Shown here: piece by piece, positions 289-19,025 of the stretch
Layout: the number at the start of each line of letters is the position of its first letter
Numbering within the stretch: the stretch's first letter is position 1
Source of the DNA: a virus
Reading direction: 5' to 3' (one strand)
Length of the DNA stretch: 26,661 bases
IMG/VR virus record: IMGVR_UViG_3300031227_000347
Coordinates: 1-26,661 of that record
Made by a program: the position numbers and the translations under genes
Notes under the pieces: generated by a model
What the model saw: the letters and a program-made list of their open reading frames with translations, nothing else
Databases searched by the model: none
What the model was told of the DNA's origin: nothing

Positions 289-302
289 AAAAAACCTTTT
301 TT
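289..302 (-). repeat. A6CCT6 motif, copy 1
   Basis: An exact 14-mer AAAAAACCTTTTTT that recurs at 3029-3042 and 6109-6122. Read on the minus strand it is AAAAAAGGTTTTTT. Here it sits directly before an ATG and probably serves as the ribosome binding site. Confidence 0.6.
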
Positions 303-593
303 ATTTGCTTATTTCTCCCTGTGAGAATAAGATTATCCCTCGTTATTTTATTGTTAGAGGTTCTGTCCTCTTCGGGAGAAAACAAGTAAACAAACCAACA
401 TCTCTGATAAAACCTTAGATAAAAGTCAAAGTGTTGTAGTCAGTAAGTTTCTTTTTTAAGTTTCTTATTCTTTCAAATACAATGGCTTCTGTCAGCTAGT
501 CAAGCGTCTATTCCGCTTTGTCAATCGTCTGCCCGATTGTGGACGCTGTGGTATTTTTGATAACTATTCTAAGGTTTTTGTGTTCTTTACAAG

Positions 594-621
594 CTTATCA
601 CAAGTTATCATATGTTGTCAA
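594..621 (-). promoter_or_regulatory. Candidate promoter for the leftmost minus-strand unit
   Basis: On the minus strand TTGACA (621-616) is followed after 16 bp by GATAAG (599-594), which is preceded by an extended -10 TG. The -35 is perfect and the -10 matches 4 of 6. The paired TTATCA repeats overlap the -10, as an operator would. The leader would be about 300 nt. A weaker alternative is TTGACT (503-498), 16 bp, TGTATT (481-476). Confidence 0.4.
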
Positions 622-625
622 TAGC

Positions 626-656
626 TTGGAGCAAGGCAATTATGCCCTGCTTCCAA
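626..656 (-). terminator. Hairpin directly after the long early operon
   Basis: TTGGAGCAAGGCA pairs with TGCCCTGCTTCCAA around an ATTA loop, with one bulge and one mismatch. It begins one base past the stop codon of the 658-924 gene and lies just upstream of the candidate promoter for the next unit. There is no U-tract, so this is a terminator-like or 3'-end-protecting hairpin rather than a textbook intrinsic terminator. Confidence 0.4.
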
Positions 657-657
657 A

Positions 658-924
658 TTATTCATCTTTTAGTTCTTGGGCGTTGTCGGTTAAATAGATC
701 TCACGATGACTTGGATCAAAATCTTTTAGTCCGTCAATGCCAACATCATTTAGCTGTGCCTGTACAATGTCCTCGGCTTCTTTCCTGTTCTTTGCCTCAA
801 CGACAGCATAGCCCGCTTGTTCCTCAAAAACCCCAACACTAAACTTCTTCTTCATAGGTCTTTCGCAATTTATGGTATGCCCATCGCCAAAAACTACCTG
901 TGCGGAACAACAATCTTTGTTCAT
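658..924 (-). CDS. Hypothetical protein, DpnD/PcfM-like pattern
   Basis: 88 residues. After a Cys-containing N-terminus (KDCC, NCERP), residues about 26-80 read as a beta strand (KKFSVGVFEE), a second strand with VEAKN, then a helix rich in EA (RKEAEDIVQAQL) and a further strand (HREIYLTD). This order resembles the small DpnD/PcfM-type fold found in mobile elements, but that is a pattern match only; function is unknown. AAAGGA precedes the ATG. It is the last gene of the long minus-strand operon and is followed at once by a hairpin. Confidence 0.6.
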   Translation of the reverse strand: MNKDCCSAQVVFGDGHTINCERPMKKKFSVGVFEEQAGYAVVEAKNRKEAEDIVQAQLNDVGIDGLKDFDPSHREIYLTDNAQELKDE

Positions 925-3028: not shown

Positions 3029-3042
3029 AAAAAACCTTTTTT
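3029..3042 (-). repeat. A6CCT6 motif, copy 2
   Basis: An exact AAAAAACCTTTTTT lying between the stop of the 3045-3179 gene and a possible mini-ORF. On the minus strand its AAGG could act as a ribosome binding site. Confidence 0.6.
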
Positions 3043-3044
3043 CT

Positions 3045-3179
3045 TCAACTCACCAAGATCCAAAACAAACCAACCACTAAAACAAATAAACCCACTACAC
3101 TAAAATATAAACCCTTGATAACCTCATCTTGCCAAACCACTACCCCACGCCACTTTTTAGCGTCCTCCTTATAAGTCAT
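3045..3179 (-). CDS. Single-span membrane protein (44 aa)
   Basis: Found by reading the gap. Residues 1-20 are charged and Trp-containing (MTYKEDAKKWRG). Residues 23-44 form one long hydrophobic segment (LYFSVVGLFVLVVGLFWILV) ending almost at the stop, so this is a C-tail-anchored membrane peptide. The ribosome binding site is AAAGGCGGTAAA, and the ATG overlaps the upstream stop (ATGA). Role unknown; an inner-membrane effector is possible. Confidence 0.7.
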   Translation of the reverse strand: MTYKEDAKKWRGVVVWQDEVIKGLYFSVVGLFVLVVGLFWILVS

Positions 3180-3307
3180 TTTACCGCCTTTCTTTTGGTT
3201 AAAAATTCTAATATATCCTGTATGTCTTGAATGATATCTCCCCTGTTGATCAAGACATCGTTGTTTTGTAGCCTTTCCAAAATCTTTATTGCCTTTACAT
3301 CGCTCAT
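3176..3307 (-). CDS. Small helical hypothetical protein (43 aa)
   Basis: The start is set at 3307 because GAAAGGAGCGAA lies just before it. A longer frame from 3364 would translate through the conserved hairpin at 3328-3376 and has no ribosome binding site. The product (MSDVKAIKILERLQNN then an IIQDIQDILEFLTKR helix) is charged and helical, with no known domain. It overlaps the following membrane-protein gene by ATGA. Confidence 0.6.
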   Translation of the reverse strand: MSDVKAIKILERLQNNDVLINRGDIIQDIQDILEFLTKRKAVK

Positions 3308-3327
3308 TTCGCTCCTTTCATTAATTA

Positions 3328-3376
3328 TTTTTTGCCAATTGAGTGGCTCAAACAAGCCACCCAAATCGATAAAAAA
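3328..3376 (-). promoter_or_regulatory. Conserved bulged hairpin, copy A
   Basis: In minus-strand RNA, U6 (3376-3371) pairs with A6 (3333-3328). Then comes an inner helix with two G-U pairs and one mismatch, a single bulged U (3365), two U-A pairs, and an 8-bp stem GGGUGGCU/AGCCACUC closed by a 6-nt loop. G-U pairs become A-C mismatches on the plus strand, so the structure belongs to the operon's own RNA. It begins right after a stop codon and ends 20 nt before the next start. Copies B and C share the architecture. Confidence 0.7.
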
Positions 3377-3586
3377 TTACTTTGCTTTGGTACAGATCCC
3401 CGCTTCAATCAAGCTTTCGGCTGTCCGCCCAAACCAACCTTGCAATTGCCAAGCTTGACCATTGTCAATTAGATATTGCCATGCCTCAATTTGCTCACCC
3501 CTTGTTGCTCCCTCACCCTCACAAAACCCCTCGGCATATGCTGTTGCAAGATATGGTGTCCACTTGATCTTTTTTACTTCACTCAT
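3377..3586 (-). CDS. Conserved small phage protein, LQGWFGR motif
   Basis: 69 residues. The C-terminal half contains WQYLIDNGQAWQLQGWFGR followed by AESLIEAGIC, a motif set seen in a widespread family of small phage proteins of unknown function. Most of the length is this domain; the N-terminus is short and basic (SEVKKIKW). ATGAAAGG-type ribosome binding site. The stop is followed at once by hairpin A. Family recognition is from the motif alone. Confidence 0.7.
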   Translation of the reverse strand: MSEVKKIKWTPYLATAYAEGFCEGEGATRGEQIEAWQYLIDNGQAWQLQGWFGRTAESLIEAGICTKAK

Positions 3587-3599
3587 TTTAAACCTTTCA

Positions 3600-3848
3600 T
3601 TAATTAGTTAATTCAACCATAATTTGAAATATCTCATACAATTTCATTTGTTCGTTTTCATCGATCCAAACCGCTTCAAGATCACCAAGTTTATCGCCTT
3701 TGGTTTCAATTTGCCTTTGAACACTCAATTCACCCGCAAGATCCCAAAACCCCCCTGTTCCATTTTCGTCCTCGACTTCTTTGAATTCACCCGACTTGTA
3801 GCGATCTAAAATGCTTTTGATCCTATCAATTAGTTTCATCTTTTTCAT
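3600..3848 (-). CDS. Hypothetical protein (82 aa)
   Basis: The start is placed at 3848 (MKKMKLIDRIKS), which follows AAAGGCGGAACG. The upstream in-frame ATG at 3863 belongs to the ATGAAAGG leader and overlaps the previous stop. The product has a basic N-terminal helix, a Gly-rich turn (NGTGGFWDLAGEL) and an acidic, helical C-terminus. No family recognised. Confidence 0.6.
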   Translation of the reverse strand: MKKMKLIDRIKSILDRYKSGEFKEVEDENGTGGFWDLAGELSVQRQIETKGDKLGDLEAVWIDENEQMKLYEIFQIMVELTN

Positions 3849-3862
3849 CGTTCCGCCTTTCA

Positions 3863-4213
3863 TTAGCTAGTTAGTTTTAATTTTTCCCAATCAGTAATCA
3901 TCTCATAATCAGTAGCCCGCAAGTCATCGACAAAATTATCGATATTTCCATCGGCTTTTAGAAAACTATAAACCATAACTTTTGTTGCACTTTCCGAACC
4001 GATACGCCCGCCCATAACCCCCATAGCAAGCCAATCGAAAACCCGAAATCTTGCCAATTTCAAATCAAAGTGTGCTTGCTTTACATTGCCACCGAAATAA
4101 TCAATCGTTGCCACAATTGTATGGATCTCATCTGTATCCAAGTTATTCATGACGCCATTACATCGGAAATCGTTTTTTTTCATTTCCATTACTTTTTTCC
4201 AAGTCGTTTTCAT
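3863..4213 (-). CDS. Hypothetical protein (116 aa)
   Basis: Unrecognised 116-residue protein with mixed composition: a basic N-terminus (MKTTWKKVMEMKKNDF), a Gly/Met-rich middle (AMGVMGGRIGSESATKVMVYS) and a charged C-terminus. It looks soluble and folded. Its ATG overlaps the upstream stop as ATGA, with GAAAGGACAAC as ribosome binding site, so it is probably produced together with the 4210-4524 protein. Confidence 0.6.
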   Translation of the reverse strand: MKTTWKKVMEMKKNDFRCNGVMNNLDTDEIHTIVATIDYFGGNVKQAHFDLKLARFRVFDWLAMGVMGGRIGSESATKVMVYSFLKADGNIDNFVDDLRATDYEMITDWEKLKLTS

Positions 4214-4524
4214 GTTGTCCTTTCATCGTTAATTTCATAATAATAGTTTTTTGTTCCGCCCGCATTCTTGCCAACTTTTTCTATATATATTCCGCAATCA
4301 ATCAAAAACCGCAATCTGTTAAAAGTGTTGCTTTCCGCTTCAAGTGTTTTTGCCCATAACTTACAACTCATCTCATAAACATTTGTTGTATTATTGCCCC
4401 CATTGCCCTCAATCTTGCCCGCATTATATTTTAATGCCTCATGTTGAAACCGCAACTCTTTTGCTATCAACTCATAAATTTTTTCATTCATGCCAATCTT
4501 TTTCCAATCAATTTCATTGATCAT
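4210..4524 (-). CDS. Hypothetical helical protein (104 aa)
   Basis: 104 residues, mostly alpha-helical, with an Asn/Gly-rich loop in the middle (EGNGGNNTTNV). The part from about residue 54 (CKLWAKTLEAESNTFNRLRFLIDCGIYI) followed by a Gly-containing turn and NYYYEI strand resembles a winged-helix arrangement, but no DNA-binding motif can be assigned firmly. AAAGGGTCAAA precedes the ATG. Coupled to the next gene by ATGA overlap. Confidence 0.6.
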   Translation of the reverse strand: MINEIDWKKIGMNEKIYELIAKELRFQHEALKYNAGKIEGNGGNNTTNVYEMSCKLWAKTLEAESNTFNRLRFLIDCGIYIEKVGKNAGGTKNYYYEINDERTT

Positions 4525-4545
4525 TTTGACCCTTTCATCATTAGT

Positions 4546-4860
4546 TTATAAATGTTTTTCAAACTTTTTGCTATATCTCATCTCGATATCATTAGCATTG
4601 ACCATGAACAGATCTTTTTCAAAAACTTGCTTACATTCATCACAATTACCGCAATTATTACATGGTAAATAGTCTTCATCAATATCACGAAAACCGCTTG
4701 GAAAATCAATCTCGAAACTTGGATACTCCCCGAAATCATGAGAGTTTGAAACCTTGCGAACGAAACCCCCGATCTTTTTAAACTCATCTTGAAGCCATTT
4801 TTCCGCTTCATCAATAAATTTTGTTGGAGCGTCAATAGTAGTCCATGATCCTAATCGCAT
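4546..4860 (-). CDS. Hypothetical protein with CxxCxxCxxC cluster
   Basis: 104 residues from the ATG at 4860, chosen because GAAAGGATCAAA precedes it. The longer frame from 4923 would translate through hairpin B. Around residue 68 there is a tight cluster CNNCGNCDEC (four Cys spaced CxxCxxCxxC), suited to a metal or Fe-S centre. The region before it contains aromatic and acidic residues (PSFEIDFPSGF). Function unknown. Confidence 0.65.
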   Translation of the reverse strand: MRLGSWTTIDAPTKFIDEAEKWLQDEFKKIGGFVRKVSNSHDFGEYPSFEIDFPSGFRDIDEDYLPCNNCGNCDECKQVFEKDLFMVNANDIEMRYSKKFEKHL

Positions 4861-4880
4861 TTTGATCCTTTCATCATTAA

Positions 4881-4930
4881 TTTTTTTATTCGTTGAGTGG
4901 CTCAATTGAACCACCCAAACCAATAAAAAA
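4881..4930 (-). promoter_or_regulatory. Conserved bulged hairpin, copy B
   Basis: Same architecture as copy A. In minus-strand RNA, U6 pairs with A6, followed by AUU/AAU, a G-G mismatch, a G-C pair, a bulged U (4919), two U-A pairs and the stem GGGUGGUU/AGCCACUC with a 6-nt loop CAAUUG. It ends 20 nt before the next start. The pair below the bulge is G-C here but A-U in copy A, a compensatory change. Confidence 0.7.
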
Positions 4931-4946
4931 TCTTTTTATCATCTCA

Positions 4947-5204
4947 TCATGTTATAGATCGGAAAGTCCGCAATTCATATGGTGTTAATTTATAGCAGTG
5001 ATCACCGCTATTAGCCCGATCCCACAACTTTTGTAGTACACTTTGATATAAAAATGCCTCCCATGTTCGATTTTGATATAGGCACTTGGTTTTATCGTAC
5101 TCATTGCCCCCGACAAAAAGCGTTGCCTCATGCTTAAACCCATTTCGTGTACTTTTCGTTTCGCATAATACATCGATGTTTTTTGTGATCTTGTAAATTT
5201 TCAT
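4947..5204 (-). CDS. Conserved small phage protein, NRTWE motif
   Basis: 85 residues. The segment LYQNRTWEAFLYQSVLQKLWDRA (residues about 42-64) resembles a motif found in many small phage proteins of unknown function. The N-terminus is a beta strand (MKIYKITKNIDVLCETK). GAAAGGATCACG precedes the ATG. The stop lies 17 nt before hairpin B. No function is proposed. Confidence 0.65.
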   Translation of the reverse strand: MKIYKITKNIDVLCETKSTRNGFKHEATLFVGGNEYDKTKCLYQNRTWEAFLYQSVLQKLWDRANSGDHCYKLTPYELRTFRSIT

Positions 5205-5220
5205 CGTGATCCTTTCATCA

Positions 5221-5472
5221 TTAATTTATAAACTTTTTATACTTGGCGGGGATCTTGTTGTATAGCCTCAAGGATTGACCGCTTGACCATTCATTAAGGT
5301 ATATCTCTTTAGTAATGCCAACTTTTTTATTTTTGCCAAACCACAATATACAATTGCCAAGCCCAAGCGTCCCCGCATTCATGGTTATAATCTCACCGCC
5401 ATGCTTATCAACAAAATTTTCTATTTGTTCATTTGTATATGTTCGCACTTGTTTTCTGGAAAATGTTTTCAT
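5221..5472 (-). CDS. Conserved small phage hypothetical protein (83 aa)
   Basis: The start is at 5472 after AAAGGTTTTGCG; the in-frame ATG at 5487 is part of the ATGAAAGG leader. The product begins MKTFSRKQVRTYTNEQIENF and ends with EWSSGQSLRLYNKIPAKYKK, a combination seen in small phage proteins but with no assigned role. Likely alpha+beta, soluble, basic. No catalytic motif. Confidence 0.6.
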   Translation of the reverse strand: MKTFSRKQVRTYTNEQIENFVDKHGGEIITMNAGTLGLGNCILWFGKNKKVGITKEIYLNEWSSGQSLRLYNKIPAKYKKFIN

Positions 5473-5489
5473 CGCAAAACCTTTCATTA

Positions 5490-5798
5490 TTAGATAAACT
5501 TACTATTCACAACCGCACTTGTTAAAATGATACATTCTTGATTTAGCGATATTTTTAATGCCTCGATAATCTCAATCGCAACCGCTTCATCACAATCATA
5601 CAATTCAACTGATAATGTATTTTCAATCACCACCATGCCATTATCATGTTTGTATATCCCACGACCTTCAAAAATAGATCCACCGCCTGCAATCTTTACA
5701 ATTGTGTTTTCTACAATTTTATACGCCTCAATTGTGGATAGTCGTTGCTTTTTTGTGTTCTTATCATTCAAGCCAACCGATAGCGTGTACTTGTTCAT
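5490..5798 (-). CDS. Conserved phage protein, VGLNDKxTK type
   Basis: 102 residues. The sequence order YTLSVGLNDKNTKKQ, an IEAYKIVENTI helix, an EGRGIYKHDNGMVVIENTL hairpin and a final SLNQECIIL strand is typical of a widespread small phage protein family of unknown function. The full length appears intact. Ribosome binding site GAAAGGTTGAAAA. The upstream gap contains hairpin C, whose 3' side ends 18 nt before this start. Confidence 0.7.
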   Translation of the reverse strand: MNKYTLSVGLNDKNTKKQRLSTIEAYKIVENTIVKIAGGGSIFEGRGIYKHDNGMVVIENTLSVELYDCDEAVAIEIIEALKISLNQECIILTSAVVNSKFI

Positions 5799-5816
5799 TT
5801 TTCAACCTTTCAATTA

Positions 5817-5855
5817 TTTACTAGTTAAGCGGGATCAACCGCCTAAACCAGTAAA
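5817..5855 (-). promoter_or_regulatory. Conserved bulged hairpin, copy C (diverged)
   Basis: The sequence has diverged from copies A and B but the fold is kept. In minus-strand RNA, UUUACUGG/CUAGUAAA is the lower stem, one U (5847) is bulged, then UUAGGCGG/CCGCUUAA and a 6-nt loop UUGAUC. Bulge position relative to the two U-A pairs, loop length and spacing to the next ATG (18 nt) match the other copies. Differences are compensatory or G-U. Confidence 0.6.
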
Positions 5856-5860
5856 GAAAA

Positions 5861-6076
5861 TTATTTTATCAACTCAATTAATAGTGTGTTATCGGTTTCT
5901 ATTGAATAGTACAATGTAGATATTCCATTGACTGATGTTATAGTGTGAATATCTGAATTTAGTTTCAGATCAACCACTATCCAAACACTACCCGCTATCG
6001 CTAATATGCCAATCGTGAACACTATCCCCAATACCGCGGTTGCCATTGCTTTTGTTGTTTCTTTGATCGCGTCCAT
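5861..6076 (-). CDS. Single-span membrane protein, first gene of the early operon
   Basis: 71 residues from the ATG at 6076 (after GAAAGGTGGCAAC; the ATG at 6091 belongs to the leader). Residues about 13-36 are a long hydrophobic span (AVLGIVFTIGILAIAGSVWIVV) after a short N-terminus with two Lys. The rest (SDIHTITSVNGISTLYYS) is polar beta and presumably lies on one side of the membrane. It is the promoter-proximal gene, about 20 nt after the predicted transcription start, and so is likely among the first products made. Function unknown. Confidence 0.65.
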   Translation of the reverse strand: MDAIKETTKAMATAVLGIVFTIGILAIAGSVWIVVDLKLNSDIHTITSVNGISTLYYSIETDNTLLIELIK

Positions 6077-6102: not shown

Positions 6103-6131
6103 TTTATAAAAAAACCTTTTTTATTATTCAA
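6103..6131 (-). promoter_or_regulatory. Promoter of the early minus-strand operon
   Basis: On the minus strand TTGAAT (6131-6126), 17 bp, TATAAA (6108-6103): 4 of 6 and 5 of 6 matches to the sigma-70 boxes at ideal spacing. The spacer contains the third A6CCT6 motif. Transcription would start near 6096 and reach the first ATG at 6076. Confidence 0.6.
6109..6122 (-). repeat. A6CCT6 motif, copy 3
   Basis: AAAAAACCTTTTTT, here within the spacer of the early promoter. Stacked A and T tracts bend or stiffen DNA, so it may shape the promoter. Confidence 0.55.
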
Positions 6132-6530: not shown

Positions 6531-6824
6531 ATGAATATACGAGAGTTCAGAAATAACTTCTGTAAATTGGCAGAAGGCGATAGTAAAATCACCGTTACCA
6601 AGCGTAATGAGATTGTTGGTGTCTATACACCGAAGAGCACCGATGTTGTTACCTGCGAGCGACACAAGTTTAATAACGTTCGGTGTTCAAACGTGGCGGT
6701 GAAAGAGGTGAAGGTTAAATCTGTCGATCAAACTATTCTGGCGAAGATATGTGACGATTGTTTTGGCTCATTAATTAGCAGTGTGGATAATCAAATGGAA
6801 GTAGAGGTACTCAATGAAATGTAA
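6531..6824 (+). CDS. Phd/YefM-like protein with C-terminal Cys cluster
   Basis: 97 residues from the ATG at 6531. Residues 1-38 (MNIREFRNNFCKLAEGDSK, then ITVTKRNEIVGVYTP) follow the Phd/YefM antitoxin N-domain: an N-terminal strand/helix, a G(D/E) turn, then the ITVTKR-x-x-(I/V)-V strand pair that in the family dimerises and binds operator DNA. The C-terminal part replaces the toxin-binding tail with CERH, a lone C and CDDC, a likely zinc site. No toxin gene is adjacent, so this is more likely a DNA-binding regulator of the rightward operon than half of a toxin-antitoxin pair. An alternative start at 6510 would lie within the promoter. Confidence 0.6.
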   Translation: MNIREFRNNFCKLAEGDSKITVTKRNEIVGVYTPKSTDVVTCERHKFNNVRCSNVAVKEVKVKSVDQTILAKICDDCFGSLISSVDNQMEVEVLNEM

Positions 6825-8089: not shown

Positions 8090-9704
8090 ACTTATTGAAC
8101 TTAAGTGGTTGCTGAAGAATCCAGACTTTAAGGAGAAGCCAGTCGATGTAGAAACGTTTTGTAAATCCCCGAACTACTTGTGCTTGACTAACAAGAAAGG
8201 CAAGTCGCAGGTTCGTGACAGGATTATGTTTGAGCTAAAAAAAATCTTTCCTCTGAACGAGGAAGACCCATTTGAATTTCCATATCAGGATGTTGTGTTC
8301 GCTGGCGGGATTGGAGTTGGCAAGAGTTTTGTAGTGAGCTTGGTTATAACCTATTGTACTTATCTGTTTGGGTGTTTGAAGGATCCGCAGGAATATTTCG
8401 GTATGTCCCCTGGTTCTGCTATCCAAATGATGAATATGGCGAATAATGAGGTCAAGGCTAGGAAGATTGTGTTTGGTGAGGTTAAAGCTAGAGTTGATAC
8501 AAGTCCTTGGTTCAAGAATAGATTTAACTATAAGCAGGAGGTTACCTCAGAACTAAGGTTCCCAAATAACATCTTTATTATTCCAGGAAACTCTGCTGAT
8601 ACATTTTTCGAAGGATTTAACATCTTCGGTGGTATTATCGATGAAGCGGACTCGCACACCAAGACACCAGAGAAAGATTTCGCTCAGGTTGGCTATGATG
8701 CTATTAAAGAAAGAATAAGGTCACGTTTTGGAAGGAAGGGGATCTTGATGACTATCGGTTCCCCGAAAGTTACTGACGGATTCTTGATGAGACGATTTTA
8801 TGAGTCAAAGAAAATGGAGCGATCTTATTCTGTGATTATTCCTTATTGGGAATGCCCTTCACCAGCATGGGACTATAGTGGTAAGACATTTAAGTATAAG
8901 GGAATAACAATACCGATTGAACATGAAGAGGAGTTTAAACGAAACCCAGAAAAGGCGTTGCGAGATATTGCCGCTGTTCCGACCTTCGCTCATCAACCGT
9001 TCTTCGCCTATCCAGAGAAAGTAGATGAAAACGCTGATATGAGTAGAGTTCAGGTGAGAACTACCAATGATTATCCATTTTATGAGCCAGGGTTTAAGGC
9101 AGACCACAAAAAGCCATGCGTTATTCATGTCGATATAGGTTTGAACAAACAGGGTGGCGATAAAACTGGTTTCGCAATGGGACATAGTAATGGGTATGCA
9201 AATAGTGATGATGGATTGCAACCGATGATATATTTAGACTTAATTGAACAGATAAAAGCACCGCCAGGAGGTGAGGTATTGATTTCAGATATTAGAAAGC
9301 GTATATTTGAATTAAGAGAAAGAGGATTTAGGATAGTCAAAGTAACTTTCGATGGATTCCAATCCGCAGAAACTATACAAATACTAAACAAAAATGGTAT
9401 AAAGGCAGAAAGGATATCTGTCGATAGAGACACTTCCGCATACGAGGCACTCAAAGACTGTATCTATCAAGAAAGGTTGAATTATCCCCCAAATCCTGTT
9501 TTCATAAAGGAGTGCAAACATCTAGAATTTTATGGAGATAAGGTAGACCATCAACCAGAAGGAAGCAAAGACGTTTCAGACGCAGTAGCTGGTGTAGTGT
9601 ATAATATTATACTAGAACCCAAAAAATATAATAAAAGAGAATTTTTTAAACCATTATTTGGTCATAGAAGACTAACTTCGGAGGAAACAAATGAGTATTC
9701 TTGA
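8010..9704 (+). CDS. terL: Terminase large subunit (packaging ATPase and nuclease)
   Basis: 564 residues from the ATG at 8010 (GGAG upstream; a TTG at 7983 is an unlikely longer start). Numbered from 8010: Walker A GGIGVGKS at 99-106, Walker B FGGIIDEAD at 206-214 with the catalytic Glu, coupling motif TIGSP at 248-252. The RNase H-like nuclease has acidic residues in HVDIG (Asp375), TFDGFQS (Asp448) and DVSDA (521-524). All key residues are present, so the enzyme should translocate DNA into the prohead and cut it. It overlaps the Cys-rich gene upstream and the portal gene downstream by 14 bases. Confidence 0.95.
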   Translation: MQDSQINKEQDWQKQLTKSLKKRSKSELIELKWLLKNPDFKEKPVDVETFCKSPNYLCLTNKKGKSQVRDRIMFELKKIFPLNEEDPFEFPYQDVVFAGGIGVGKSFVVSLVITYCTYLFGCLKDPQEYFGMSPGSAIQMMNMANNEVKARKIVFGEVKARVDTSPWFKNRFNYKQEVTSELRFPNNIFIIPGNSADTFFEGFNIFGGIIDEADSHTKTPEKDFAQVGYDAIKERIRSRFGRKGILMTIGSPKVTDGFLMRRFYESKKMERSYSVIIPYWECPSPAWDYSGKTFKYKGITIPIEHEEEFKRNPEKALRDIAAVPTFAHQPFFAYPEKVDENADMSRVQVRTTNDYPFYEPGFKADHKKPCVIHVDIGLNKQGGDKTGFAMGHSNGYANSDDGLQPMIYLDLIEQIKAPPGGEVLISDIRKRIFELRERGFRIVKVTFDGFQSAETIQILNKNGIKAERISVDRDTSAYEALKDCIYQERLNYPPNPVFIKECKHLEFYGDKVDHQPEGSKDVSDAVAGVVYNIILEPKKYNKREFFKPLFGHRRLTSEETNEYS

Positions 9705-11794: not shown

Positions 11795-14700
11795 ACATAT
11801 AATAGAACACGAAGAGATAGGAATCGAGGGCTTGGAAGAGCCTATAATTTCTCTTATTAAAGAAGAGACAAAAGACATTGAAATAAGCGTATCTGGTGGT
11901 GGGGGCAGCAGCAGTAGTGGTGGTGCTACTATCTCAGATGGTGTTTATGGTGCAGCATGGGACGCTGATACAACTGGTGGTGCATCAAGACACGCAATAT
12001 TCACGAAGATAGAAACCCTGGGCGGAGGACATGATCCAGTTACGTTAGATGTAAATGCGGAAAAGCTTTTGAGTCTCTCTACACAAGAAGTTGGCTTGGA
12101 TACACAAACAGCAAATAAGATATTCGCTGGTCCCGCTACTGGTGCAGTAGCTGCCCCTACATTTAGAGATATGGTGGCAGCAGATGTTCCAGATTTGTCT
12201 GGAACCTATTTAACAGTCGAATCTGACCCTGTTTATCTTGCCTCACAAGCAGCAAACATAGACGCAGGAGATATTACTAATCTTGGTAATTTATCTGGAA
12301 CCAATACAGGCGACCAAACAACCATAGTTGGAATTACAGGGACTATGGCAGAGTTTGATGCTGCTGTAACTGACGGAAACATAGCCTATGTCGGTGGAGC
12401 CTTCCACGATGGATTCTCAGACTTTGTGGCTAACGAACATATAGACCACACAGCTGTAACTTTGACAGCAGGGGACGGTTTAACAGGTGGTGGAGATATA
12501 TCTGCTAATAGAACTTTTGCAGTAGGAGTTGATGATGCTACCATTGAAATAGACACTGATAAATTAAGAGTAAAAGCTGACGGAATAAACGACACTCATA
12601 TAGACTGGGGGACTGGTGCTACACAAGTTAGTGCTGTTGATGTTCCTATCGCAGACGCAGGGACTTACTTTGATACAGACGATGTTGAGACCGCTTTACA
12701 AGACCTAGCCCTACCCCCCACTAAAACTATTAAAATTAGTCCAGGGTATACCGATAACGATGCGACACTAAAATACTCAACTATTCAGGCAGCTTTGACT
12801 GCTAACACAGCAGGTGGGGAGTTGTTCGTAGTTTACCCTGGTACTTACGCTGGAGATACGATAAACTTCACAGCCAATAACCAATGGGTTGTGGGGGCTC
12901 AAAATCCTAAACCTGCATCAGCGTTGGTTACTAATAACGCCACTATCTGCGACTACACCGATAAAACAGGTTGTCTAGTTAAAGATATTAAGATGCAGAT
13001 GACACTAGCCGCTAACGGAGCTGATTCTACAATAGATGGTAACGCAGGTGGAAGTTGTAACTTCAAGCATTGTCATATCGAATGTATTGCATCGGGAACG
13101 ATTGACGGAACAGTCCCAGGAGGTTCAACTTGTGCTAGAGGAGACGGAACAGTCAAGATTGTAGACTCCTCGGTTGTATATACCAACACAGCAGACAGAG
13201 GTGCAAGAGGTAAGAAAGCTATGCTTATAGAAACTGGAAGTGTTTGGATTTTAGATACTGTCGCCCTCACATCTACTGGAAGTGGAACAGGCATCAACCA
13301 CGCTGGGATAAGAGACAATTCAGACGGTGATTTGCTGATTATTAACTCTACTGTGAATGTTACAGATAATGATGCGACAGTAACTTACTGTTTGAATATA
13401 GATAACGGTTCTGGTTCGCCAGAGGTTTACCGCAACCAGATGGAATGTACCAATACTGGAGCAGACCACAATTCTATTACGATTCGGATAGGAAGCTCGA
13501 CCACTCTCTCTGTTAGAAGCACATACAATCACTTTCACTCAACTGCTGGAGGTGGAGGAACAGCAAAGGCTTATTATCTCCAGATAGATGATGCTAACAC
13601 AACTGCAATAAGTCAGTTTGATGACCTTGTGGCTGCCGATGGAAAGAATATTGTAGCTGGAACATTTACCAGAGTGAACTCAAGTGTTGACGGAGAGCTA
13701 ACAATCTCAGGTTGTCTGTATCAAGGATTAACAAAACAATACAGCCAATGCTATGACGGAACAGACCAACAGTTCGCCTTAACAAGCGGAGACTTTTACT
13801 TTAATAGCGATGTACACGCTAATATTACAGGGGATATTACTGGTAATGCAGATACAGTTACTAATGGAGTCTACACAACCGACTTTCCACTTAACCAAGA
13901 CACAACAGGTCTTGCTGCTACTGCTACTGCTTTGGCAACTGCTAGAACAATAGGTGGTACTTCTTTTGACGGCACAGCCAATATCAAGATAGGTGCTTTA
14001 AGCTCAACCAATATAGACGCTACTACTTCGGCAGAACTAGCTGGGGTGATAAGCGATGAAACTGGTTCGGGTAAGTTAGTCTTTGAAACTTCTCCAACTC
14101 TGGTAACTCCTGCTTTGGGTGCGGCGACTTACACAACTTTAGGTGGTGGTGCGATTACGACTACTGACGATGTAATAGTGAATGCTGACAACAAAGGACT
14201 CGTATTGGGAGCAGGACAAGATTCAGACTTATTCTTCAACGGAACTGATACCTTTTTCAACACTACTGGAACTTTTCAGGTAAACAACTCCGATCCCAAC
14301 CCTTGTATCTTTGTTGGAGAGAACGATGCAGGAAATATCGGAGTGCAGTTCAAGAACAACTCAGATGCGAACACAGCAAACACAGCAACAGTCTCTGTGT
14401 ATTGTAAGACTTCAGTTGGTTCTAAGGCAGCAGGAGCATTGAGAGCTGGGTTTACAGATATTACAGACGCAACCAGAGATTCATTCCTGACGCTTATATC
14501 TTATGTAGACGGAAGTGCTATTGATGGATTAAAGGTTGAGTCCGATGGAGATATAACTTTACACAATCAGATAAACCAACAGGCTTGGCAAGACGCATCC
14601 TTCTCAAACAGTTGGGTAAACTACGGGGGAGTCCACGCTACTGCACAATACTATTTAGACACGCAGGGAACTGTTCACTTAAAAGGACTTGTAAAAGATG

Positions 14701-16195: not shown

Positions 16196-16226
16196 CAACT
16201 ACAATTTCACATAAAAGGTAGTTAAT

Positions 16227-16245
16227 GGGGGCTGAACAAGCCTCC
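16227..16245 (+). terminator. Hairpin ending the fibre-lysis unit
   Basis: GGGGGCT / AGCCTCC forms a 7-bp stem (one G-U) around GAACA, followed by ATAAGTGCAATTTATTT, a weak U-rich stretch. It lies between the lysis cassette and a strong promoter, so at least partial termination is likely. Confidence 0.5.
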
Positions 16246-16260
16246 ATAAGTGCAATTTAT

Positions 16261-17971: not shown

Positions 17972-18961
17972 ATGGCAACTTTAGGAGAATTTGCTGGACT
18001 TGAGTCTCGAGCTATGACTGAAACAGTTAAGAGATTCCCTAAAAAGAATCTTTTGGGAGTAGGATTATTCCCCGCAAGACCAAGTTCAACAAAAGCAGTT
18101 TATTGGGATGTAGTTGAAGGTACTCGAAGATTGGGCAAGTTCCAGTCTCCTGGTGCTGAATCACATGTTGACAAACTAACACCTAGAACACGAGTTAATA
18201 CCGAGGTGCTCTATATTGCAGAGAAAAAGGTTATTGACCAGAACACAAAGAATTTCATTGATGGTATAGGTAAATTCGATTCTGCCTACGGAATGCAGCT
18301 TATAGCTGACGAACTAGGCGAGTTGGATAGAATTGTAGATAACACTAAAGAGTGGATGGTATGGGAAGCACTTGTAAAGGGACAAATTGATGTCCAACAG
18401 GTAACTCCTCCTATGAAGTTGAAGGTAGATTATTCTATCGATGCAACCCATAAGGCAGATGCCGCTACTACTTGGGCTACTACAGATTCAGCTGACCCAC
18501 TTAGTGATATTCTTGGATGGAAGAAATTGATTTCTAGAGATTCGTGGGTTACTCCCACAAGAGCTTACTGTTCCTCACAAGCTATGATCTATCTTGTTGA
18601 GAACTCGGCTGTACAGACATTGTTAAGGTATACTGTTGGTAATCAACTCGCTGAGTCAGGTTTCATTACTCGACTTGGAGGACTTGATATCATCGTCTAT
18701 GATGTTAACTACGTTGACACAGATGGCGAAGTACAACAGTTTATTCCAGATGACAAATTTATTGTCATGGCACCTGAAGGTCTTGGTAAAGCGTTTACTG
18801 GACCACAAGATGTTCCTGCTGGAGACGGTGTTGCTACACAAATCGGTAAAGTTTCTTATTCATGGGCTACCAAAGACCCTGTGGATACTTGGATTAAGGT
18901 TGCTGACTCTTACATGCCAGCGATTCAGAATCCGAATCAACTTCTTATCGGTACAATTTAA
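17972..18961 (+). CDS. Major capsid protein, lambda gpE-like
   Basis: 329 residues, a normal length for the Phage_cap_E family. The N-terminus contains LGVGLFPARPSSTKAVYWDVVEG, typical of this family's N-arm. Later come AYCSSQAMIYLVENSAVQTLL and the GGLDIIVYDVNYVDTDGEVQ segment followed by DDKFIVMAPEG, which form the P-domain end. It should assemble the T-number shell with the portal and decoration protein. AAGGAGCAAATT is a strong ribosome binding site. Confidence 0.9.
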   Translation: MATLGEFAGLESRAMTETVKRFPKKNLLGVGLFPARPSSTKAVYWDVVEGTRRLGKFQSPGAESHVDKLTPRTRVNTEVLYIAEKKVIDQNTKNFIDGIGKFDSAYGMQLIADELGELDRIVDNTKEWMVWEALVKGQIDVQQVTPPMKLKVDYSIDATHKADAATTWATTDSADPLSDILGWKKLISRDSWVTPTRAYCSSQAMIYLVENSAVQTLLRYTVGNQLAESGFITRLGGLDIIVYDVNYVDTDGEVQQFIPDDKFIVMAPEGLGKAFTGPQDVPAGDGVATQIGKVSYSWATKDPVDTWIKVADSYMPAIQNPNQLLIGTI

Positions 18962-18970
18962 TAGTGTTTT

Positions 18971-18999
18971 TATAAGTGGGAGCTTCGGCTCTCACTATA
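18971..18999 (+). promoter_or_regulatory. UUCG-capped hairpin after the capsid gene
   Basis: TATA(A)GTGGGAGC, UUCG, GCTCTCACTATA: a roughly 12-bp stem with a very stable C(UUCG)G tetraloop, starting 9 nt past the stop. No U-tract follows, so it may act as a partial terminator or protect the 3' end of capsid mRNA. Confidence 0.5.
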
Positions 19000-19025
19000 A
19001 GAAGATTATATAATGGAGGAAAAAA

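Follow-up and report, generated by a model that had tools for sequence, protein, structure and literature searches.

The window, which is the whole viral record of 26,661 bases, carries the gene set of a tailed phage, including genes for the large terminase, portal, maturation protease, major capsid protein, minor tail protein, and tape measure protein. The structural genes are oriented rightward, whereas a set of about 21 small genes between positions 6076 and 103 points leftward. As judged from this layout, the small leftward genes are probably early genes that are co-transcribed as one operon. Five of the gaps in this early operon are longer than 30 nt, the remaining ones being mostly 2–28 nt or overlaps, and three of these five contain hairpins of one family, designated A, B, and C:

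3327–3377, minus strand: hairpin A, type I; minimum free energy (MFE) −21.4 kcal/mol, z-score −5.9; training member of covariance model R1 (72 bits); in the gap from the stop codon of the 69-aa gene (3377–3586) to the Shine–Dalgarno sequence (SD) of the 43-aa gene (3176–3307)
4881–4931, minus strand: hairpin B, type I; MFE −23.5 kcal/mol, z-score −7.3; training member of R1 (75 bits); in the gap between the 85-aa gene (4947–5204) and the 104-aa gene (4546–4860)
5814–5858, minus strand: hairpin C, type II, with a shorter top; MFE −18.8 kcal/mol, z-score −5.7; in the gap between the 71-aa gene (5861–6076) and the 102-aa gene (5490–5798)

The 69-aa protein (3377–3586, minus strand) is a member of DUF7417 / phrog_3908, whose function is unknown. 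The 102-aa protein (5490–5798, minus strand) has relatives in 31 viral loci; it also matches the S-adenosylmethionine lyase family and phrog_3543, but weakly and with scores below the cut-off. The longest gap of the early operon (289–657, minus strand) comprises 369 nt with no called gene. It folds strongly as a whole (−92 kcal/mol), carries a 5′-bulged hairpin at its upstream end, and could contain a leader or a small RNA.

An earlier note on this DNA had placed three minus-strand hairpins in the gaps occupied by A–C. The free energies and z-scores listed above bear this out, and none of 200 shuffled sequences of A, B, and C was equally stable. In a folding z-score scan of both strands with 55-nt windows, A–C together hold the 1st, 4th, and 6th ranks.

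The survey for related terminases (TerL) revealed two near relatives, L003 and L004, which show about 91% TerL identity and are nearly identical to each other; only L004 extends into the early operon. Its hairpin D (747–797) lies in the same gap as C; the genes on either side are orthologous to those of the window, with 55% identity for the 71-aa gene and 76% for the 102-aa gene. A fifth copy, E, occupies a different gap of L004 (about 154–204).

The family architecture comprises approximately 20–22 pairs with a U/A-rich foot and a G-rich top, and each of the five copies fills the gap between the upstream stop codon and the SD of the next gene. A spare U in the 5′ arm is found in four of the five. 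The U/A-rich lower stem, the one extra U, and the two U–A pairs above the bulge were all described correctly for A–C, as was the pair below the bulge, which is A–U in A and G–C in B and C. The bulge may be assigned to any of U13–U15 in A–D, because three U residues face two A residues, and it is not invariant, since in E, which lacks the bulged U, an A·C mismatch replaces the bulge-bearing pair. Other mismatches interrupt the stems at positions 8–44 in A (A·C), 11–41 in B (G·G), and 4–48 in C (C·U). The loop, which the earlier note gave as 6 nt, can be closed further in A, B, and D, to 4 nt. The stems end about 18–20 nt ahead of the next ATG, directly before GAAAGG (the SD), in agreement with the original description.

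Pairing was counted on a hand alignment of A–E fitted to the structure; automatic alignment misplaced C or E. On this alignment, which leans towards the structure to an extent that the slid controls cover only in part, 101 of 108 cells (94%) are paired over the five copies, compared with at most 56% when the partner is slid by 1–3 columns. Nine of the 22 pairs have changed on both sides (slid control, one; shuffles reach nine in 0.02% of cases), in a sample of two viruses whose cells are not independent, with A and B being 76% identical and maybe recent copies.

The non-Watson–Crick cells of the operon strand comprise 14 G–U and 2 A–C over the five copies (P = 0.004), which agrees with the wobbles having been read as G–U on the minus strand. 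The operon strand also folds better than the opposite strand in all five copies, by 4–11 kcal/mol. All copies are inverted repeats, and two-sided changes would preserve a DNA dyad too, so that operator sites or cruciforms acting at the DNA level, with no role for RNA, have to be considered. The G–U excess and the better folding of the operon strand, however, point to RNA, or to single-stranded DNA of that strand, rather than to a duplex-DNA dyad, and we regard a purely DNA-level explanation as highly improbable. Selection on the operon's own RNA, as proposed in the earlier note, is supported by the covariation among five copies, the G–U excess, and the presence of copy D in the relative.

The hairpins are of two types. 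Namely, pair 16–37 is G–C and pair 19–34 is U–A in A, B, and D, while these pairs are A–U and C–G, respectively, in C and E. Hairpins C and D occupy the same gap and differ in type, which hints that copies may have been exchanged, although the identities (61% for C–D, 73% for B–D, and 65% for C–E) are too similar for proof. The same hint would suit REP-like sequences or other miniature palindromes that are mobile, enter gaps by insertion, and are recognised when they form hairpins in single-stranded DNA. Copies A–E are indeed bulged intergenic palindromes in several copies, and the bulge found in E. coli REPs is needed for transposase activity (PMC8266576). REPs are, however, preceded by a conserved tetranucleotide, mostly GTAG (PMC8266576), and a GTAG-type tetranucleotide is absent from the foot of A–E. 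The window has three copies, not hundreds, the genome scan revealed no repeated relatives, and no Y1 transposase (PF01797) was detected in five records, some of which are fragmentary. Hairpin orientation matches transcription in six of six cases. A mobile origin of this kind appears quite improbable.

The reach of the family was examined with covariance model R1, trained on A, B, and D. The model search proposed in the earlier note recovered, in 34 kb, C and E with E-values of 2e-5 and 3e-3, respectively, neither being a training sequence, but gave no convincing match in 854 kb of distant loci. Nothing convincing was found in L100, L036, and L057, of which L100 and L036 (one dataset) stop short of the relevant gaps. 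Accordingly, the expectation of copies in front of unrelated small genes holds for five gaps in two viruses but not for the other viruses reached. The early operon of G004 (51.8 kb, 59–60% TerL identity, same layout), read gap by gap, contains no copy, so the wider group can do without the hairpin device. A strong fold at 8570–8645 of L054 (G004) was discarded since it looks, by eye, like a small ORF. Also by eye, L054 shows at about 14396–14550 a tandem duplication of a stretch of about 75 nt that precedes the rightward operon.

The 97-aa product of the first rightward gene of the window (6531–6824, plus strand) has cysteine pairs and the conserved start NIREFRNNFCK, and it is kept in L003, L004, and L100 and, more distantly, in G004. 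Judged by eye, this start resembles that of an antitoxin of the Phd/YefM type.

Sequence patterns gave a similar picture. The exact core pattern of A and B had no match in viral contigs, and looser patterns, applied to viral contigs and species genomes, retrieved only L004, plus chance matches that fold differently. Four matches in Sporomusa were rejected, as they share a different sequence. Thirty homologues of the 102-aa protein were checked for a copy upstream of their genes, and only L005, which is L004 reversed, had one. Scans with TerL, the capsid protein, the 339-aa protein, and the 97-aa protein revealed no further virus carrying the A–E family, and the TerL scan of species genomes revealed no provirus. 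In L006, another phage with a homologue of the 102-aa protein, two hairpins before SD-like sequences (9959 and 20194) have the common core CTTCGTATGAAG, and one of them lies directly upstream of the 102-aa gene. Rfam 15 gave no match in the window that reached the gathering cut-off, and only chance matches were seen below it in 3200–6000; the tRNA and Rfam-family readings of the hairpins were rejected, in line with the earlier statement that no matching family was known. A literature search, with most subscription papers beyond its reach, yielded no such phage hairpin family. We rate A–E as a new sequence family of an already known kind of device.

A wider class became apparent with a descriptor for a strong hairpin with one extra base in the 5′ arm, which was drawn up after A–C were known. 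It has six matches in the window, compared with a mean of 0.53 and a maximum of 3 in 30 shuffling trials; three of the six are A–C, which are not independent evidence, and the following three were not used in setting the descriptor:

620–662, minus strand: hairpin bulged by a single extra A in the 5′ arm, located where the 88-aa gene has its stop codon; sequence unrelated to A–C, architecture the same
16218–16253, plus strand: weaker 5′-bulged hairpin of unrelated sequence, in the gap that precedes the gene for the head maturation protease
18961–19009, plus strand: hairpin with a UUCG loop and one extra A in the 5′ arm, located after the major capsid gene and ahead of the SD of the following gene

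Intergenic gaps account for 8% of the sequence and contain all six, in each case on the transcribed strand; both operons are represented. A mirror descriptor with the extra base in the 3′ arm had two matches, i.e. the capsid hairpin in another register and one inside a gene. The claim that the other gaps of the early operon lack the element therefore holds for the A–C sequence family but not for the architecture, given the hairpin of unrelated sequence in the 289–657 gap (620–662). We know of no previous description of this preference for a bulge in the 5′ arm.

The post-capsid gap of each of L036, L037, L038, L039, and L040 also contains a strong hairpin with unrelated letters and without a U-tract. 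Their capsid proteins are 53–81% identical, and L037 and L038 have the same gap sequence, which leaves four distinct cases. Taken alone, the gap folds at −19 to −30 kcal/mol in L036–L040, with more unpaired bases in the 5′ arm. The retention of a fold despite turnover of its letters, on the transcribed strand of each operon, argues for a role in mRNA processing or stability.

Other readings of the gaps were also considered. Intrinsic terminators were rejected, as no U-tract follows the stems and A-rich sequence is found there instead. Mobile cassettes of the T4 type, consisting of a promoter and a stem-loop, would explain repeated early-gene hairpins in gaps that differ between relatives, and a motif of A-tract/T-tract runs is found ahead of B, D, and E as well as at the operon start. 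Promoter-like (sigma-70) sites in the region are, however, not above chance, and by eye no −10 box is kept between relatives; the promoter reading was rejected, and such cassettes seem improbable.

The 14-mer AAAAAAGGTTTTTT occurs three times in the window (289–302, 3029–3042, and 6109–6122, all on the minus strand; expected number 0.01), each time in a gap or the leader of the early operon. In both L004 and G004, the operon begins with a recurrence of the form TTGAA..TAAAAA-NN-TTTTTT.

On balance, we favour, with somewhat more belief than doubt, the reading of A–E as intercistronic mRNA hairpins that provide RNase III-type sites for processing, block exonucleases, or do both. The long early transcript would carry each hairpin as a signal for processing and stability. 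A host RNase III or a similar nuclease would nick the duplex of approximately two turns, and/or the hairpin would act as a barrier that shields the upstream message at its 3′ end and the downstream one at its 5′ end. In this way the operon would be split into segments with separate lifetimes, and the late operon would use the same architecture with unrelated letters, chiefly behind the capsid gene. The duplexes of A–E, with 20–22 pairs, exceed the RNase III minimum of 12 bp; 12 bp and a tetraloop are enough for the E. coli enzyme (PMC8708148). The fold, its covariation, its strand, and its placement are observed, while nuclease action and segment-specific half-lives are inferred.

Some features are also those of operator hairpins, in which a phage or host protein would recognise the bulged U together with the G-rich upper stem and regulate, as an RNA regulon, how the gene after each copy is translated. 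Letters of the upper stem and around the bulge are common to hairpins A, B, and D, beyond the needs of a nuclease that reads the duplex only, and these common letters together with the bulge could be a protein site. The distance to the ATG is constant, about 18–20 nt. In their wider context, the SDs of C and D are predicted to be partly paired, and translation may be affected there. Such control has a precedent in T4 gp43, a known repressor whose target hairpin precedes its own start codon (PMC3014915). The letters of C and E differ, however, E is bulge-less, the early proteins searched gave no recognisable RNA-binding family above the cut-off, and no candidate binder was identified. Moreover, hairpins of the same architecture occur elsewhere without common letters; these structurally similar but sequence-unrelated 5′-bulged hairpins of the late operon, on the opposite strand and including the one behind the capsid gene, make processing or protection a better choice than a single binding site recognised by its sequence. 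Operator function is accordingly possible but rather unlikely. A related reading, in which a single factor acting in trans, be it an RNA-binding protein or a nuclease and of phage or host origin, reads the 5′-arm bulge and switches several early-operon segments and the capsid message together, seems to us distinctly unlikely; the recognition rule of such a phage RNA regulon would be the placement of the bulge, not the letters.

Thus, an uncultivated phage lineage marks chosen gene borders with a common, covarying RNA fold. The same architecture, with an extra base in the 5′ arm and a place in the gap after a stop codon, is found in the late operon, and a hairpin follows the capsid gene in relatives. 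If the processing reading is correct, these hairpins would be a sequence-readable mark of the points at which phage transcripts are segmented, and they would offer a new system for testing what RNase III-type sites require besides a duplex.

Several known systems share parts of this arrangement. REP elements are likewise short intergenic palindromes, some of them bulged, but A–E have no GTAG-type foot, no accompanying TnpA_REP-type transposase, few copies, and an orientation that follows transcription. Promoter and stem-loop cassettes have been described in T4-type phages, where early-gene hairpins are also repeated in differing gaps; A–E lack a convincing promoter. The operator of T4 gene 43 is, similarly, a phage mRNA hairpin that precedes an SD, whereas A–E are present in several copies before unrelated genes and have no known binding protein. 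The early RNase III sites of phage T7 (R1.1 type) resemble A–E, which lie between genes that are probably early, in being hairpins of about 50 nt in early-gene gaps and in having the size of an RNase III substrate. R1.1 carries an internal loop in contrast to the single extra 5′-arm base of A–D, with no sequence relation shown, and cleavage of the hairpins described here is putative. The puf operon of Rhodobacter contains an intercistronic stabilising hairpin, which is also a stem right after a stop codon, ahead of an SD, and without a U-tract. By comparison, A–E constitute a repeated, covarying family within one operon, for which an effect on message half-life is putative.
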